Of a DNA stretch of 57,102 nucleotides, positions 41,755 through 46,368 are shown in pieces. A model generated the notes under the pieces. That model saw nothing but the letters and a program-made list of their open reading frames with translations. It was not told where the DNA came from and searched no databases. The translations under genes were made by a program, and so were the position numbers. How positions within the stretch are numbered: the first letter of the stretch is position 1; each line of letters starts with the position of its first letter. Source of the stretch: an uncultured bacterium (GTDB taxonomy: Bacteria; Planctomycetota; Phycisphaerae; Phycisphaerales; SM1A02); NCBI GenBank assembly GCA_903898755.1, contig CAIUGT010000002.1, positions 1 to 57,102 of the forward strand. Direction: 5' to 3'.

Positions 41755-42815
41755 AGCGATTTCAATAAGTTGGGTCGCAAATTTTGCCCACGTAGGCGCG
41801 GGGCATCGAGCGCGGTAAAGCGTTGTGGATCCACCATTGCAAGATCAGGATCCGCGATTGGGCTTTCGCCATCGAAGTCGCTTTCCCACATTGTTCGCAA
41901 AGCCCAATAGCGACTGGCGTAGAGATCAAATGCGTCTTCCGGGCGGCTCGCTTTGGCGGCCATTTCACTTTTGGCGTCGCCCGCGGACATGTGTTCGTCC
42001 GTGGTGACAATGTCGCTTCCAAAAAGAATGCGCCCGCGGAAGCGCTCTAGAAAAGTTTCCATCGCGCCTTGCGGATGTTTGGAAATCTCTCGCAGCATCC
42101 ATTTGGTGGCGCTTGTATCCAAAAATAAATTTGGGTGACGATCAAGAATTCCAGCAAGAAAATGCAGGTCTTCTGGCCAGCCACCCATGTGTGCCGCTAG
42201 CCATGGCGAGGTAAATCGATCAAGCAGCCTTTCAAGGGGAAGATATTGCGCGGACTTTGTTCCGTATCGCGCTGCATCGCTGTAGCGAGTTTGAAACCAG
42301 GTGTCGGGGTCCGCGATATGCACCATGAGCGACATTCCCAAACTGTTTGCCAATTCCATGGCGGCTACTCGCAGCGGCGCGTCTAGTTGAAACATCGTCG
42401 CATCGCCAGCTTCAATCGCAAACTCAACGCTGCGCGGCGCCGCCCAAATTTTGCACAGACGAGAACCAAGTTCGTGATATTTTTCAATGCGTTCAAGAAA
42501 GCCCGCGCCTAACGAATGCTTGCGATCTTTCGAAGCGAAATCTGGAACGGCGATCAAGCGAAGTCGATCACCAAGTTCCTCCCGCACCACGGGCACTTGT
42601 TCCAAATAGGTCATGGACCAAATCGAACCAATGCCATACAAGTCCATCGCTTCACGAAGAATTTTGCAGGCGCGCGCGCCGTTCACGTGTGAATGAGCGT
42701 CCGTGATGGCGAACGGCAATGTAGGAAATTGCTTAGAAAGCGCGCGATAATCCCATCCAAATCGATTGGAAGGGTTCACGTTTTGATGCGAATGAATATG
42801 TGTTGATTGCGTCAC
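41655..42815 (-). CDS. Amidohydrolase (amidohydrolase-2 family) protein
   Basis: A 386-residue predicted TIM-barrel hydrolase. Visible metal-ligand motifs are DAHSHVNGA near residue 39, MVHIADPDTWF, WLAAHMGGWPED and LFGSDIV (about residue 265). These are the positions of the zinc-binding His residues and the catalytic Asp in amidohydrolase-2 proteins such as ACMS decarboxylase. The N-terminus is a His/Gln-rich leader. The substrate is unknown. Its C-terminus runs 100 bases into the oppositely directed glycosyltransferase-like gene. Confidence 0.85.
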   Translation of the reverse strand: MTQSTHIHSHQNVNPSNRFGWDYRALSKQFPTLPFAITDAHSHVNGARACKILREAMDLYGIGSIWSMTYLEQVPVVREELGDRLRLIAVPDFASKDRKHSLGAGFLERIEKYHELGSRLCKIWAAPRSVEFAIEAGDATMFQLDAPLRVAAMELANSLGMSLMVHIADPDTWFQTRYSDAARYGTKSAQYLPLERLLDRFTSPWLAAHMGGWPEDLHFLAGILDRHPNLFLDTSATKWMLREISKHPQGAMETFLERFRGRILFGSDIVTTDEHMSAGDAKSEMAAKASRPEDAFDLYASRYWALRTMWESDFDGESPIADPDLAMVDPQRFTALDAPRLRGQNLRPNLLKSLYVDAAANFVSAGKKFEDSRTANTSGHTRPTHS

Positions 42816-42854
42816 GCGTTCAATCGTAACTCGCGTTTGAAGTGCGCGGAGACA

Positions 42855-43442
42855 TTAATGAGCGCGGCGGGGGCGTGATTTATTTCGAGTCGCCAATCGA
42901 GCGCCCTCGGCTTTGGTTTTTGGAGTTTGTGTGACACGTTTTTTAATCACAGTACTTGTTGTCGCGTTTGGTATGACCGCATTTCGACCGGCGTGATGAA
43001 TGCATCCAATATAAACTTCGTGATCCGCTTCAATATCAAAGTGACGAACGATTTCACAATCAAACCAAGCCGTTGCACGCAGCGGTACTGGCGCACCAGA
43101 TGGCGTCTTCATGCAAGGAATTGAAATCATTGGATCTTGCGTGTGTTCCGGAATTTGGCGGAAGAGGCGCGTGCACACTGGATCATTTGCGGCGATCAAA
43201 CATAATGCAAAACCTCTTGAATCGCGAATGATTGGACTCAGTGGTTGACCTTTTTCAATTGCAATGACAAGCATTGGTGGTTGCGAAGCGACTTGTTGCA
43301 CCCAGCGCACAAGAGCTCCGCCGCGCATGTCGCCAAATGCGCCAGTTAAAAGAAAAACACCACTGGGAATTTGATCTAAAAGATCACTAATGCCAGAACG
43401 TTCAATTGGGGTCCAATCGCTTCTTGGTGCCATTGCACACAC
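42855..43442 (-). CDS. Flavin reductase-like FMN-binding protein
   Basis: A 195-residue protein with the split-barrel flavin-reductase fold. The region RGGALVRWVQQVASQPPMLVIAIEKGQPLSPIIRDSRGFALCLI matches the FMN-binding part of the HpaC/flavoredoxin family (S.P..v......t...I...g.F.vnvl). The last 30 residues are Lys/Arg-rich and may be an added tail. The start may be GTG 43442 (GGGAT upstream) or ATG 43433. It may supply reduced flavin to a partner; none is visible. It faces away from mraZ. Confidence 0.85.
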   Translation of the reverse strand: MCAMAPRSDWTPIERSGISDLLDQIPSGVFLLTGAFGDMRGGALVRWVQQVASQPPMLVIAIEKGQPLSPIIRDSRGFALCLIAANDPVCTRLFRQIPEHTQDPMISIPCMKTPSGAPVPLRATAWFDCEIVRHFDIEADHEVYIGCIHHAGRNAVIPNATTSTVIKKRVTQTPKTKAEGARLATRNKSRPRRAH

Positions 43443-43570
43443 AATATCCCGAAATAAAACAATATCTAGTTTAAATCCATAATTTACAAGTATTTATATA
43501 AATATAGGACGCGTTATGGTGGGGATTGAAATTGTTCTAAGACTAAAAATTTAAAGATTTTTGATCATAT

Positions 43571-43611
43571 GTGGGGCAAAGTGTTGCAAAGTGGGGAAAT
43601 TAAGTTATTCT
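43571..43611 (+). promoter_or_regulatory. MraZ operator repeats overlapping the mraZ promoter
   Basis: Three consecutive 10-base units start at 43571, 43581 and 43591: GTGGGGCAAA, GTGTTGCAAA and GTGGGGAAAT. MraZ is known to bind direct GTGGG repeats spaced by five bases, so units 1 and 3 fit exactly and the middle one is degenerate. A promoter is superimposed: TTGCAA (43584-43589), 16 bases, TATTCT (43606-43611). The start codon follows at 43629 with no clear ribosome-binding site. This is classic autorepression layout. Confidence 0.82.
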
Positions 43612-43628
43612 ACTGACACAGGTGTCCC

Positions 43629-44093
43629 ATGCTTTTTCTAGGCGAATTCGAACATTCTCTCGATGCGAAACAGCGACTGGCTATTCCATCGGAACTGCGC
43701 AATTGCTTGCCCAACGAGGGCACCGATGCGGTGTTTGTTTCAGCGCCTGGTCCCAATGGTTTTCTTTGGTTGTGGCCAGAAAAAACATTCGCGGATTTAT
43801 CCAACGCGCTCGGTGGTTCATTGTTGGGAGACGAGGGAGTTCAGAATTTCGAGCGGTTGATTTTCAGTCAGTCTTCGCGTTGTCCGTTAGACAAAGCGGG
43901 GCGCGTGCGCGTTCCGGATCGAATGCTGGCTCGCTACGGATTGTCGGGAAATGTAATGATTCTTGGTGTTCGAGATCATCTGGAACTGTGTACGAGCGAC
44001 AAGTGGAAGGAAGAACGTGAATTACTTGAGCCCGCCGCCGCGGATATTTGGCGACGTGCTCGCGAGACAATTCGAAATCGAACTTCGAGTTGA
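43629..44093 (+). CDS. mraZ: Transcriptional regulator MraZ
   Basis: A 154-residue protein with two AbrB-like half-repeats, each with the MraZ loop motif: DAKQRLAIPSELR (about residues 12-24) and DKAGRVRVPDRML. MraZ normally heads the dcw cell-wall/division cluster (mraZ-mraW-ftsL-ftsI...), forms a ring and represses its own promoter. Here no dcw gene follows: a long intergenic stretch and then csrA come next. The operator repeats upstream are intact, so autoregulation is likely to have been kept. It may control genes elsewhere, or the intergenic RNA. Confidence 0.94.
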   Translation: MLFLGEFEHSLDAKQRLAIPSELRNCLPNEGTDAVFVSAPGPNGFLWLWPEKTFADLSNALGGSLLGDEGVQNFERLIFSQSSRCPLDKAGRVRVPDRMLARYGLSGNVMILGVRDHLELCTSDKWKEERELLEPAAADIWRRARETIRNRTSS

Positions 44094-44114
44094 TCTTTGG
44101 AAAAACTTTTAACT

Positions 44115-44375
44115 CGTCGCATGCGCGACGATTTGATTCAAGACTTGCGTTGATGCCAAGGATGGCCCAACGCGGGAGAGCAACGAATGGTCCCCTCACT
44201 GCGCCAAGGACGGCGAAGTGGGAGCCGTTCGAACAGAACAAACGAGCCAGGGACGGCTCGTTGAGAAGGGTTTGATCCGCCAAGGATGGCGGCAAGGACT
44301 CTGGAACCCTGTTTTTGGGGTTCTATCCGTCGTCGCCCCCGTACCGTGACCCGGTACGGGGGCGTTTTTGTTTTT
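44115..44375 (+). ncRNA. Candidate CsrA-binding small RNA (CsrB/RsmY-like)
   Basis: Between mraZ and csrA. Four hairpins carry hexaloops with GGA. H1: outer stem GCGTTG/CAACGC and inner GCC/GGC around AAGGAT (44147-44173). H2: CTCACT/AGTGGG, then CGCC/GGCG, around AAGGAC (44195-44222). H3: AACGAGCC/GGCTCGTT around AGGGAC (44241-44262). H4: CCGCC/GGCGG around AAGGAT (44277-44292). All loops fit A-R-G-G-A-Y closed by C-G, the CsrA preference. Additional GGA triplets are single-stranded (AAGGAC at 44294). A short hairpin CGTCGC/GCGACG (44115-44130) precedes, and a rho-independent terminator follows. The 5' end is not defined, as no clear promoter was found. The RNA could instead be a long csrA leader, but the terminator argues for a separate transcript. 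Confidence 0.8.
44334..44375 (+). terminator. Strong rho-independent terminator ending the structured RNA
   Basis: Perfect 13-bp, GC-rich stem (CGCCCCCGTACCG at 44334-44346 with its complement at 44352-44364) with a five-base loop, then TTTTTGTTTTT. It separates the RNA from csrA. Confidence 0.95.
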
Positions 44376-44404
44376 AAATTCACATTGTTTGGGTAGACTG
44401 ATCC

Positions 44405-44420
44405 TTCGGAAATTTCCGAA
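44405..44420. promoter_or_regulatory. 16-base perfect palindrome upstream of csrA
   Basis: TTCGGAAATTTCCGAA is its own reverse complement. It lies about 80 bases before the csrA start and just after a possible -10 (TAGACT, 44394-44399). It could be an operator, or form a hairpin in the csrA leader; the leader continues with a GGA-containing stem-loop (CGCGG/CCGCG, 44444-44465). Confidence 0.55.
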
Positions 44421-44498
44421 ATGCAGACTTGATCGCATGGATTCGCGGAGGCTTGGAGCACCGCGGCGAGATGGTCTCAGGCAATGAGGTCCTAAGCA

Positions 44499-44741
44499 AT
44501 GTTGGTCATTACCCGTCGAGAAGGTGAAGAAGTTGTGATTGGCGATCCAGCAGCCCCGCTGGGAATTGTTCGCATTGCCTCCATCAAAGGCGACCGGGTT
44601 CGAATTGCATTTGAGTTTCCGCGCGAAATTCTGGTGCACCGTCGGGAAGTGGCAGATCAAATCAACGCGACGGAGATTGGCAAGGACGGCAATCCTATTG
44701 TTGGTCAAATTCGGCCAGCTTCTGGCGGCGAAACTCCGTAA
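44499..44741 (+). CDS. csrA: Carbon storage regulator CsrA (translational regulator)
   Basis: An 80-residue CsrA/RsmA. It begins MLVITRREGEEVVIG, the first beta strand with the RNA-binding Arg residues, and continues with the FPREILVHRREV segment, which contains the conserved Arg of the second binding surface. The family is usually 60-70 residues; here the tail is somewhat longer and disordered (RPASGGETP). CsrA binds GGA in mRNA leaders and blocks translation. GAGG lies 10-13 bases before the start. No fliW or flagellar gene is adjacent, so control by FliW is not suggested. The structured RNA just upstream is the likely antagonist. Confidence 0.95.
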   Translation: MLVITRREGEEVVIGDPAAPLGIVRIASIKGDRVRIAFEFPREILVHRREVADQINATEIGKDGNPIVGQIRPASGGETP

Positions 44742-44919
44742 CAATTTCAAATTGAACATGAATGTCTTCCTTCTCGGACAATTGGTTCAAGAAGGGATGA
44801 CGCTGTTGACTAGAAGTATTCGCCGCTAGACTCGCATCATGAAATTGCGTTCATGTCGATGGACTTGGATTTCCCGTGAGATTGCCCCTGGAACTTTACA
44901 CACGCGGGTGACCAAACGA

Positions 44920-46368
44920 ATGAAACAATTCAATGTCCAAGTTGTGGCCCAGACTTTTGCGCAACTGTTTGTGGTTTGCGTGCTCAGTGCGTGCGCCGTT
45001 TCGGCGGGCAAAGATCCAATGAAATCGCTGTCAAATCCAGAGTCATTGCCCGTGGTGCAAGTGGCGGCTATGGAAAAATTAGACGAGACGCCAACGCCTG
45101 AGTACATCTCCGCGTTGAAGCGCATGATGTGGCAACCAGGATTCGCGGAGTCCACGCGATTGGCGGCGTTTGAGCGGTTGGTGAAACTGGATGAGCCTGG
45201 CTTAAAGGAAATTCTGCGGCTGCAATTGCCAAAATTAATGGCGTTGGCTTGGAGACAAACGTTGTGCGAACTCATTGTCACACATCAATGGGTGGATATG
45301 ACCCCAACACTTGTGCGCGCGTGGAGTGTTCCAATGGCGTCTTGGATAGAGCAAGACAAGGATCGTCCAGAACGCATTGCCATTGAGCAGTTGAATGGAA
45401 AAGATCAATTGACGGATGTATTGGTGAAGATGTTGGTGGAATCCAATCCGATCACAGAGGCGAACTTGCGATTGCGATGTTGGGAAATGTTGCAGAAGAT
45501 TGGACAAAAGGAGCGCTTGGTGAAATTGCTCGCGGATGCTTCGGTGAAGCCCGAAGATCGGTTGCTGTCCAATTTGCGAAGTTGTGCTGGCGAACTTGGA
45601 ATTGTGCCAACGACGAAGGAGGAAATTTTATGGCTTCAAGCGTTGCTTGAAACTAAAAATATTTCATTTTGGGAGCAAGCCAAATCTGCAGCCATGCAAC
45701 TTCCACCAGAAGTACGCCTGAAATTGGAAATTCGTGAACTGCCCATCGCGGTGGCCGTGTCCACATTCAAGCCCGAATTGTTATCAAAAACCACCGCGGA
45801 GCTTTATCAAATTGTGGAGGCGCGCCGCCAAGCGAAGGGCTCTCGCATTGTCAGCCCAAGTTTTGAAGGCTATGGCGGGGATCACACGGAAAATTTGTAC
45901 GAGATGCGCAACAAACTTTCATGGGGCGATTTAGCGTCCATGGCCATCGCCATGGAAATTTTCGACTCGCCCATTCTTCGTCAGCAAATGTTTGATCTTG
46001 CCGATCGCGACATGGCCGATCGCGACACGGAATTTGGTGGAGTGATCCGCATCAAAAGCGATGGGAAACCGGCGATCGAGGAAATGAAACCGAGGGTGCA
46101 AGGAAATGATTTGCGCTATGAGTCCTCTCAAAAAATGTTTGACAATGCCTACACGGGATTGTTTCATTTTCATTTGCATTGTCAGAGTTACGACAACATG
46201 CAATATGCCGGGCCGCACTTGGGCGATTTCGCCTACGCCGAGAGCACGCGCGCCAATTGTTTGGTTTTTAGCTTTGTTTCCCGCAAGGAATTGAATGTCG
46301 ATTTTTATCGCCATGGTCCAATGGTGGTTGATTTGGGTTGCATTGCGCGACCAAGGAATGATGGTTAA
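44920..46368 (+). CDS. Lipoprotein of unknown function
   Basis: Starting at ATG 44920 (the frame continues upstream to 44839) gives 482 residues with a signal peptide ending at a lipobox (VLSAC, Cys near residue 25). The N-terminal two thirds are helical, resembling HEAT-type repeats (ELIVTHQWVDMTPTLVRAW, CWEMLQKIGQKERLVKLL). The C-terminal 100 residues include HFHLHCQSYDNMQYAGPHLGD, a His-rich stretch loosely similar to JAB1/MPN metalloprotease H-x-H...D motifs; this is only suggestive. It ends three bases before dapF. Confidence 0.72.
   Translation: MKQFNVQVVAQTFAQLFVVCVLSACAVSAGKDPMKSLSNPESLPVVQVAAMEKLDETPTPEYISALKRMMWQPGFAESTRLAAFERLVKLDEPGLKEILRLQLPKLMALAWRQTLCELIVTHQWVDMTPTLVRAWSVPMASWIEQDKDRPERIAIEQLNGKDQLTDVLVKMLVESNPITEANLRLRCWEMLQKIGQKERLVKLLADASVKPEDRLLSNLRSCAGELGIVPTTKEEILWLQALLETKNISFWEQAKSAAMQLPPEVRLKLEIRELPIAVAVSTFKPELLSKTTAELYQIVEARRQAKGSRIVSPSFEGYGGDHTENLYEMRNKLSWGDLASMAIAMEIFDSPILRQQMFDLADRDMADRDTEFGGVIRIKSDGKPAIEEMKPRVQGNDLRYESSQKMFDNAYTGLFHFHLHCQSYDNMQYAGPHLGDFAYAESTRANCLVFSFVSRKELNVDFYRHGPMVVDLGCIARPRNDG

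Follow-up and report, generated by a model that had tools for sequence, protein, structure and literature searches.

Conserved GGA-loop hairpins behind mraZ as a candidate CsrA sponge in planctomycetes

Introduction

The 57,102-nt stretch of planctomycete DNA analysed in this study (the window) carries four hairpins with GGA-bearing loops between mraZ and csrA, which raises the question of whether they belong to an RNA that holds CsrA away from its messages, and, if so, from which promoter it is made. A sequence-only reading of the locus had proposed such an RNA antagonist, linked to mraZ and adjacent to csrA. According to a passage of PMC4333381 (2014), Gammaproteobacteria were the only group in which sRNAs that sequester CsrA had been identified, besides two predicted cases in other bacteria; the abstract of PMC4005645 describes these sRNAs as widespread in bacteria at large. 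Since the two statements differ, published opinion on their spread, at least in these passages, is not uniform. In the part of PMC4682653 (2015) consulted, FliW and BarA-UvrY are described as strongly anti-correlated and nearly exclusive, and the Planctomycetes are listed among the groups that may use FliW instead. No report of a CsrA-sponge RNA in planctomycetes, or of mraZ together with a CsrA sponge, was found among the matches listed in literature of mainly open-access coverage.

Results

The hairpin region of the window

All features of the locus lie on the forward strand. The mraZ gene (43629-44093; 154 aa) matches PF02381 with an E value of 6e-16, above the Pfam cut-off, and TIGR00242 with an E value of 1.2e-18 at 67.4 bits, below the cut-off of 98.35. 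The csrA gene (44499-44741; 80 aa) is a paralogue that does not adjoin fliW and matches PF02599 (E 5.1e-14, above the Pfam cut-off); its product is regarded as a divergent paralogue because matches to the NCBIfam CsrA models fall below their cut-offs. Downstream of csrA, a 509-aa ORF (44839-46368) with no Pfam match (E 0.001) and no NCBIfam match (E 0.01) is followed by a diaminopimelate epimerase-like gene.

The description of the region given by the sequence-only reading was borne out. The four hairpins (hexaloops AAGGAT, AAGGAC, AGGGAC and AAGGAT) are present within 44144-44292, all four closed by a C-G pair; the eight GGA triplets counted in about 170 bases fall within 44154-44320; and the terminator hairpin of 13 perfect pairs occupies 44334-44364, followed by TTTTTGTTTT, the intrinsic terminator with its T tract extending over 44334-44374. 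Hairpin 1 (44144-44176) has a two-part stem, consisting of a 3-bp inner stem around the hexaloop that starts at 44158 (gcc-AAGGAT-ggc) and a separate outer stem. The loop of hairpin 2 (44195-44222) starts at 44206 on an inner stem of 4 bp (cgcc-AAGGAC-ggcg), to which the MFE fold adds an outer stem of 6 bp that is absent from the genus consensus structure. Hairpin 3 (44241-44262) carries its loop from 44249 on 8 bp (aacgagcc-AGGGAC-ggctcgtt), and hairpin 4 (44277-44292) from 44282 on 5 bp (ccgcc-AAGGAT-ggcgg). In loops 1 and 4, the MFE fold pairs the outer A with the T of AAGGAT and so shows an AGGA tetraloop.

Two further hairpins stand at the ends of this set: a leading hairpin (44114-44131), whose loop lacks GGA in the window species and whose counterparts have a GGA loop in some congeners, and a hairpin without GGA 5' of the terminator (44303-44324). 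A long-range stem (44184-44190 with 44327-44332) is predicted to enclose hairpins 2-4. Its 3' side falls within ATCCGTCG (44325-44332), located 5' of the terminator, after the last hairpin, and invariant within the genus in 7/8 columns, a conservation that the long-range stem explains only partly.

Chance does not readily produce such a region. Within 44094-44380 there are four ANGGAN hexaloops on stems of 3+ bp; 24 of 5000 dinucleotide shuffles had two, and none had more. The MFE was -133.6 against a shuffle mean of -97.5 (sd 5.07; z -7.1; 200 shuffles). On stems of 4+ bp, the entire window contains eight ANGGAN hexaloops over both strands, and the three within the RNA region are the only ones on the forward strand.

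Conservation and covariation in the genus

Each of the four loops keeps its A and its GGA in 14/14 aligned sequences of the genus, and the stems vary. Loss of the hairpins in close relatives keeping both mraZ and csrA, which the sequence-only reading had named as grounds against its proposal, was thus not seen in the genus. The genus structure of 65 pairs is paired in 97.1% of the cells of the 14 sequences and shows double changes at 21/65 pairs (71 cells), a level reached in 0/500 shuffles, a control that ignores the relatedness of the 14 sequences. Further pair types numbered 45 against 45.8 in the shuffles and were therefore not above them. Sliding the structure by one column lowered pairing to 41-43%, although this control favours the genus structure because it was derived from the same alignment.

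The double changes are distributed over the leading hairpin (helix 1, 4/7 pairs), hairpin 1 (helix 2, 3/11), hairpin 2 (helix 4, 1/4), hairpin 3 (helix 5, 2/7), the hairpin 5' of the terminator (helix 8, 4/7) and the terminator (helix 9, 5/13). Hairpin 4 (helix 7) shows none, with 4/5 pairs invariant. The long-range stem (helix 3), paired in 97.6% of cells with zero double changes, is for that reason weakly supported. It is very likely that the region encodes a conserved RNA with high-affinity sites of the CsrA type.

Hairpins behind mraZ in named loci

Of 163 relatives found in a scan with an MraZ alignment, the best 80 were used; by most titles these are planctomycete MAGs, often Phycisphaerales or Phycisphaerae, with some otherwise labelled and several near duplicates. 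Five loci with less than 400 nt past mraZ were omitted, leaving 75. A strict hairpin was defined as an ANGGAN hexaloop on 5+ perfect pairs within 400 nt 3' of mraZ. In this set from the best 80 of 163, at least one strict hairpin was found in 70/75 loci, at least two in 50/75 and exactly one in 20/75; over the same 400 nt, L088, L092, L093, L134 and L145 had none. The strict hairpins number 140 on the mraZ strand and 0 on the reverse strand. Their density is 4.67/kb past mraZ versus 0.01-0.04/kb upstream of mraZ and more than 800 nt downstream, and mraZ coding DNA contains 12 strict matches on its own strand (0.34/kb). In 1500 shuffles (20 per locus), 21 strict matches arose, none with two.

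When hexaloop hairpins of the form NNxyzN (5+ bp) were counted in the 75 loci, GGA accounted for 144, the next triplet for 19 and the median triplet for 4, and the first loop base is A in 140 of the 144 NNGGAN loops. The full set of 80 loci, including the short ones, contains 103 distinct hairpins; 99 of these are closed by C-G, and the second stem pair varies (CG 45, TA 30, GC 19, others 9). A passage of PMC4005645 proposes as the high-affinity CsrA/RsmE site an ANGGAX hexaloop placed directly on a stem, and this consensus, as worded there, is the motif found behind mraZ. The CsrA SELEX consensus quoted in a passage of PMC7652899 is RUACARGGAUGU.

Breadth in the class and association with CsrA

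The class of the window, which the data suggest to be Phycisphaerae, was sampled evenly. MraZ was found in 55/61 genomes, and scanning all 55 over 600 nt revealed a hairpin behind mraZ in 40/55 at 4+ bp and in 33/55 at 5+ bp. Among the 47 CsrA-positive genomes (PF02599), 39 carry a hairpin at 4+ bp (80 forward, 1 reverse), leaving 8/47 without one at this stem length and 15/47 at 5+ bp. A hairpin (4+ bp) is present in 1/7 CsrA-negative genomes and in 0/1 with a marginal CsrA match. The Fisher p value for this association (7e-4 at 4+ bp, ignoring relatedness) overstates it because the CsrA-negative genomes span two families and six of the seven come from one, f88, in which all six lack the hairpin. 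No CsrA was found in G198 of family f86 (87% complete, 720 contigs), yet it has four hairpins; another f86 genome, G190, has CsrA. The hairpin count ranges from one to seven in relatives having the RNA, with seven at 4+ bp in one genome (G029). In family f4, with four CsrA-positive genomes, hairpins were found in 0/4 at 5+ bp and 1/4 at 4+ bp, and an ARGGATC heptaloop is present in three.

Outside the class, the best 30 MraZ loci were taken from a sample of the phylum in which 128 genomes carry MraZ, one of the 30 falling inside the class. Within this selection, a hairpin (4+ bp) was found in 1/29 mraZ loci; CsrA is present in 12/29 genomes and the hairpin in only one of those 12. CsrA alone is therefore insufficient to bring the RNA. 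The expectation that the RNA would be lost together with CsrA of the window type did not hold: in family f5, of the same order, the FliW-linked CsrA is the sole one, and hairpins behind mraZ persist in 3/4 genomes.

In addition, each of the four f5 genomes has, some 25 nt before mraZ and close to its SD, an ANGGAN hairpin on 4+ bp (L147 2338, L148 1620, L149 2331, L151 1579); among named loci, the 60 nt preceding mraZ contain such a hairpin in 0/78.

Position of csrA and the CsrA protein

A CsrA match was obtained in 41/41 genomes searched, and a close match (E 6.4e-18 or better) in 36/41, the window's genome included; a close match is missing from all four f5 genomes and from G003, which is 73% complete. 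mraZ was found in 41/41 genomes, and it lies within the stretch in 21 of the 30 csrA loci fetched. The two genes share a strand at a distance of ~405-455 nt in 14 loci of the genus and in one of another genus. In six further genera, csrA is convergent with mraZ and the GGA hairpins stand behind mraZ on the mraZ strand; csrA is convergent also in many named loci. In families f2, f3, f5 and f6, csrA is not in the mraZ locus, and the hairpins behind mraZ are kept. In these genera and families, with csrA in convergent orientation or outside the locus, the hairpins stay behind mraZ; it is therefore mraZ that the RNA accompanies. Of the placement proposed by the sequence-only reading, the link to mraZ thus stands, and the adjacency to csrA turned out to be incidental.

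In a 20-row alignment of 19 relatives and E. coli CsrA, the residues T5, R6, R7 and R48, which we take to be the RNA-contact residues, are invariant. The SD of window-type csrA lies within a GGA-loop hairpin (for example, GGGC-AGGAG-GTCC) in 15/30 loci (L003-L032), compared with 11% of random 38-mers that were not SD-matched; this is not so in the window itself. These SD-covering hairpins suggest a putative autoregulation of window-type csrA. Apart from this, seven planctomycete genomes of families f32 and f73 in the phylum sample have 7 to 17 CsrA matches each versus the usual one or two.

FliW and the fliW leaders

FliW is present in 37/41 relatives; the window's genome has fliW next to its second csrA, and the four f5 genomes have it next to their sole csrA. 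On stems of 4+ bp, fliW leaders contain ANGGAN in 11/20, AGGAN in 14/20 and either in 18/20 relatives (reverse strand 1/20), one of the two misses being a 164-nt stub. GCGAC-AGGAG-GTCGT covers the fliW SD in 7/20 relatives (L271-L290) and in the window's genome, there at about 40226-40209 of G000:C41 (L165). The fliW-csrA pair is likely under CsrA control, and the leader hairpins suggest that this lineage may use the GGA-loop code in mRNAs as well.

Signals of a possible mraZ transcript

Upstream of mraZ in the window, three MraZ-box-like GTG(G/T) repeats follow at 10-bp spacing (43571-43594). GTG repeats with this spacing occur within 300 nt upstream of mraZ in 68/77 loci from the best 80 of 163, three of the 80 having been omitted for too little upstream DNA; in the same 77 loci there were 0 on the reverse strand and 0 in the 300 nt downstream of mraZ. 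They resemble the Mollicutes MraZ site, given as (AAAGTGKN3)3 in a passage of PMC5282649 (see also PMC8475190, in part). A strict scan found a terminator in 49/74 loci, always past the first hairpin, and none in 25/74; seven of these 49 have another hairpin past the terminator. Taken together, the MraZ-box-like repeats and the terminator favour a transcript driven from mraZ. According to part of PMC6156199, RNA pieces are carved from mraZ and its operon in E. coli, which would be a loose precedent, by analogy, for the planctomycete RNA.

Discussion

This study supports, at the level of sequence, the proposal that the locus encodes a CsrA antagonist: the hairpins are conserved behind mraZ, their stems covary, and in the class sample their presence is associated with CsrA. 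We put the probability that the RNA acts as a CsrA sponge, whichever promoter drives it, at roughly 0.78. That this sponge would be carried on the mraZ transcript, taken as a separate point, appears slightly better than an even bet. In the mechanism considered, MraZ would control its own promoter via the MraZ boxes, and transcription would pass from mraZ into the four ANGGAN hexaloop hairpins and end at the strong terminator. The hairpins would then make up the 3' portion of this transcript, possibly subject to processing, and would hold CsrA dimers off their mRNA targets by binding and sequestration.

The candidate shares with CsrB/CsrC and RsmX/Y/Z of Gammaproteobacteria several stem-borne ANGGAN loops (four ANGGA loops directly on stems in the window), a single short terminated RNA and the presumed sequestration of CsrA, but differs from them in belonging to another phylum, in standing behind mraZ and in having FliW in the same genome. 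Rfam gave no match at the gathering threshold in the RNA region, the best on the same strand being rsmX (22.1 bits versus 56, E 0.062). A known Rfam family was ruled out, and the ncS025 match (28 versus 46 bits) is on the opposite strand. GacA/UvrY-type control acts through an upstream palindrome, TGTAAGN6CTTACA; none was found in 42738-46135, and the window holds 10 matches with up to three mismatches versus 9.49 expected. The RNA may therefore be said to work like CsrB/RsmZ, and membership of that family is unsupported by the covariance model and by the control element.

Two other kinds of CsrA-binding RNA are comparable. In Campylobacter jejuni, as stated in part of PMC4894983, the flaA mRNA is a CsrA sponge; it resembles the present case as a message that also titrates CsrA (presumably so here) in a FliW-bearing bacterium, but it is a flagellin message and the main target of CsrA, whereas in the planctomycete several hairpins follow a regulator gene. 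The RNAs TwoAYGGAY (RF01731) and Bacillaceae-1 (RF01690), predicted CsrA binders in a passage of PMC4333381, likewise stand outside the classical families and have GGA loops predicted to be of the CsrA type, but belong to other lineages; neither matched the window, the RNA region (E up to 10) or 14 relative loci (E up to 5).

The main competing view concerns the promoter only. If the RNA came from an sRNA gene of its own, transcribed from a promoter within the 3' end of mraZ, it would have the same sponge function, and there is room for such a promoter since the hairpins start close behind mraZ. E. coli offers a parallel, as CsrB and CsrC are made from the csrB and csrC promoters under BarA-UvrY (PMC7652899, in part). 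However, a scan limited to the sigma-70 consensus found zero promoter-like sites in 43400-44900, synonymous-site conservation shows no clear rise at the 3' end of mraZ (on only 4 sites), and the RNA remains behind mraZ where csrA has moved away. We regard an independent promoter as possible yet less probable than transcription from mraZ. The hairpins might instead act in cis, as a 3'UTR through which CsrA or another factor sets mraZ mRNA stability with no meaningful titration of CsrA. The RNA follows mraZ on the mraZ strand as such an element would, and the single strict site in 20/75 loci, few for a sponge, fits it too; but the two or more strict sites in most loci, and the seven at 4+ bp in G029, would exceed the needs of a cis switch, and this explanation is considered unlikely.

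Two remaining readings carry far less weight. An autoregulatory leader or attenuator of csrA would agree with the genus, in which csrA follows the terminator in the same orientation, but the convergent csrA of six other genera and many named loci, together with families f2, f3, f5 and f6, which keep the hairpins with csrA outside the locus, already refutes it for most loci; a read-through role could apply in the genus alone, and we hold the leader reading to be very improbable. Chance hairpins or a mobile REP-like repeat may be practically dismissed. Further copies were sought in the genome with one stem-specific pattern and with the RNA region's own DNA; single GCCANGGANGGC-like palindromes do occur elsewhere, and SCCANGGANGGS has 25 genome matches versus 6 for the reversed control. 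However, the four matches at the mraZ-csrA locus are the sole cluster among the 25, the strand bias of the strict hairpins is 140 to 0, and the stems differ among hairpins and species while the loops persist.

Returning to a CsrA sponge on the mraZ transcript, we see an even chance that, across the class (Phycisphaerae by inference), the mraZ message is a dual-function RNA that encodes MraZ and whose 3' portion is an old CsrA sponge acting in trans, beside FliW, with MraZ autoregulation setting the level of free CsrA. If this is true, a regulator of division and the cell wall would be coupled to global post-transcriptional control. An RNA antagonist and FliW would also coexist in one cell, despite the near-exclusive occurrence of FliW and BarA-UvrY stated in part of PMC4682653. 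A table in PMC9029176, also seen in part, counts 8 described sRNAs for the PVC group versus 345 for Proteobacteria, and in this group, for which few sRNAs have been described, the candidate RNA offers a starting point for tests. As a class-wide candidate in Planctomycetota, it would extend the CsrA-sponge system to another phylum and tie it to mraZ.
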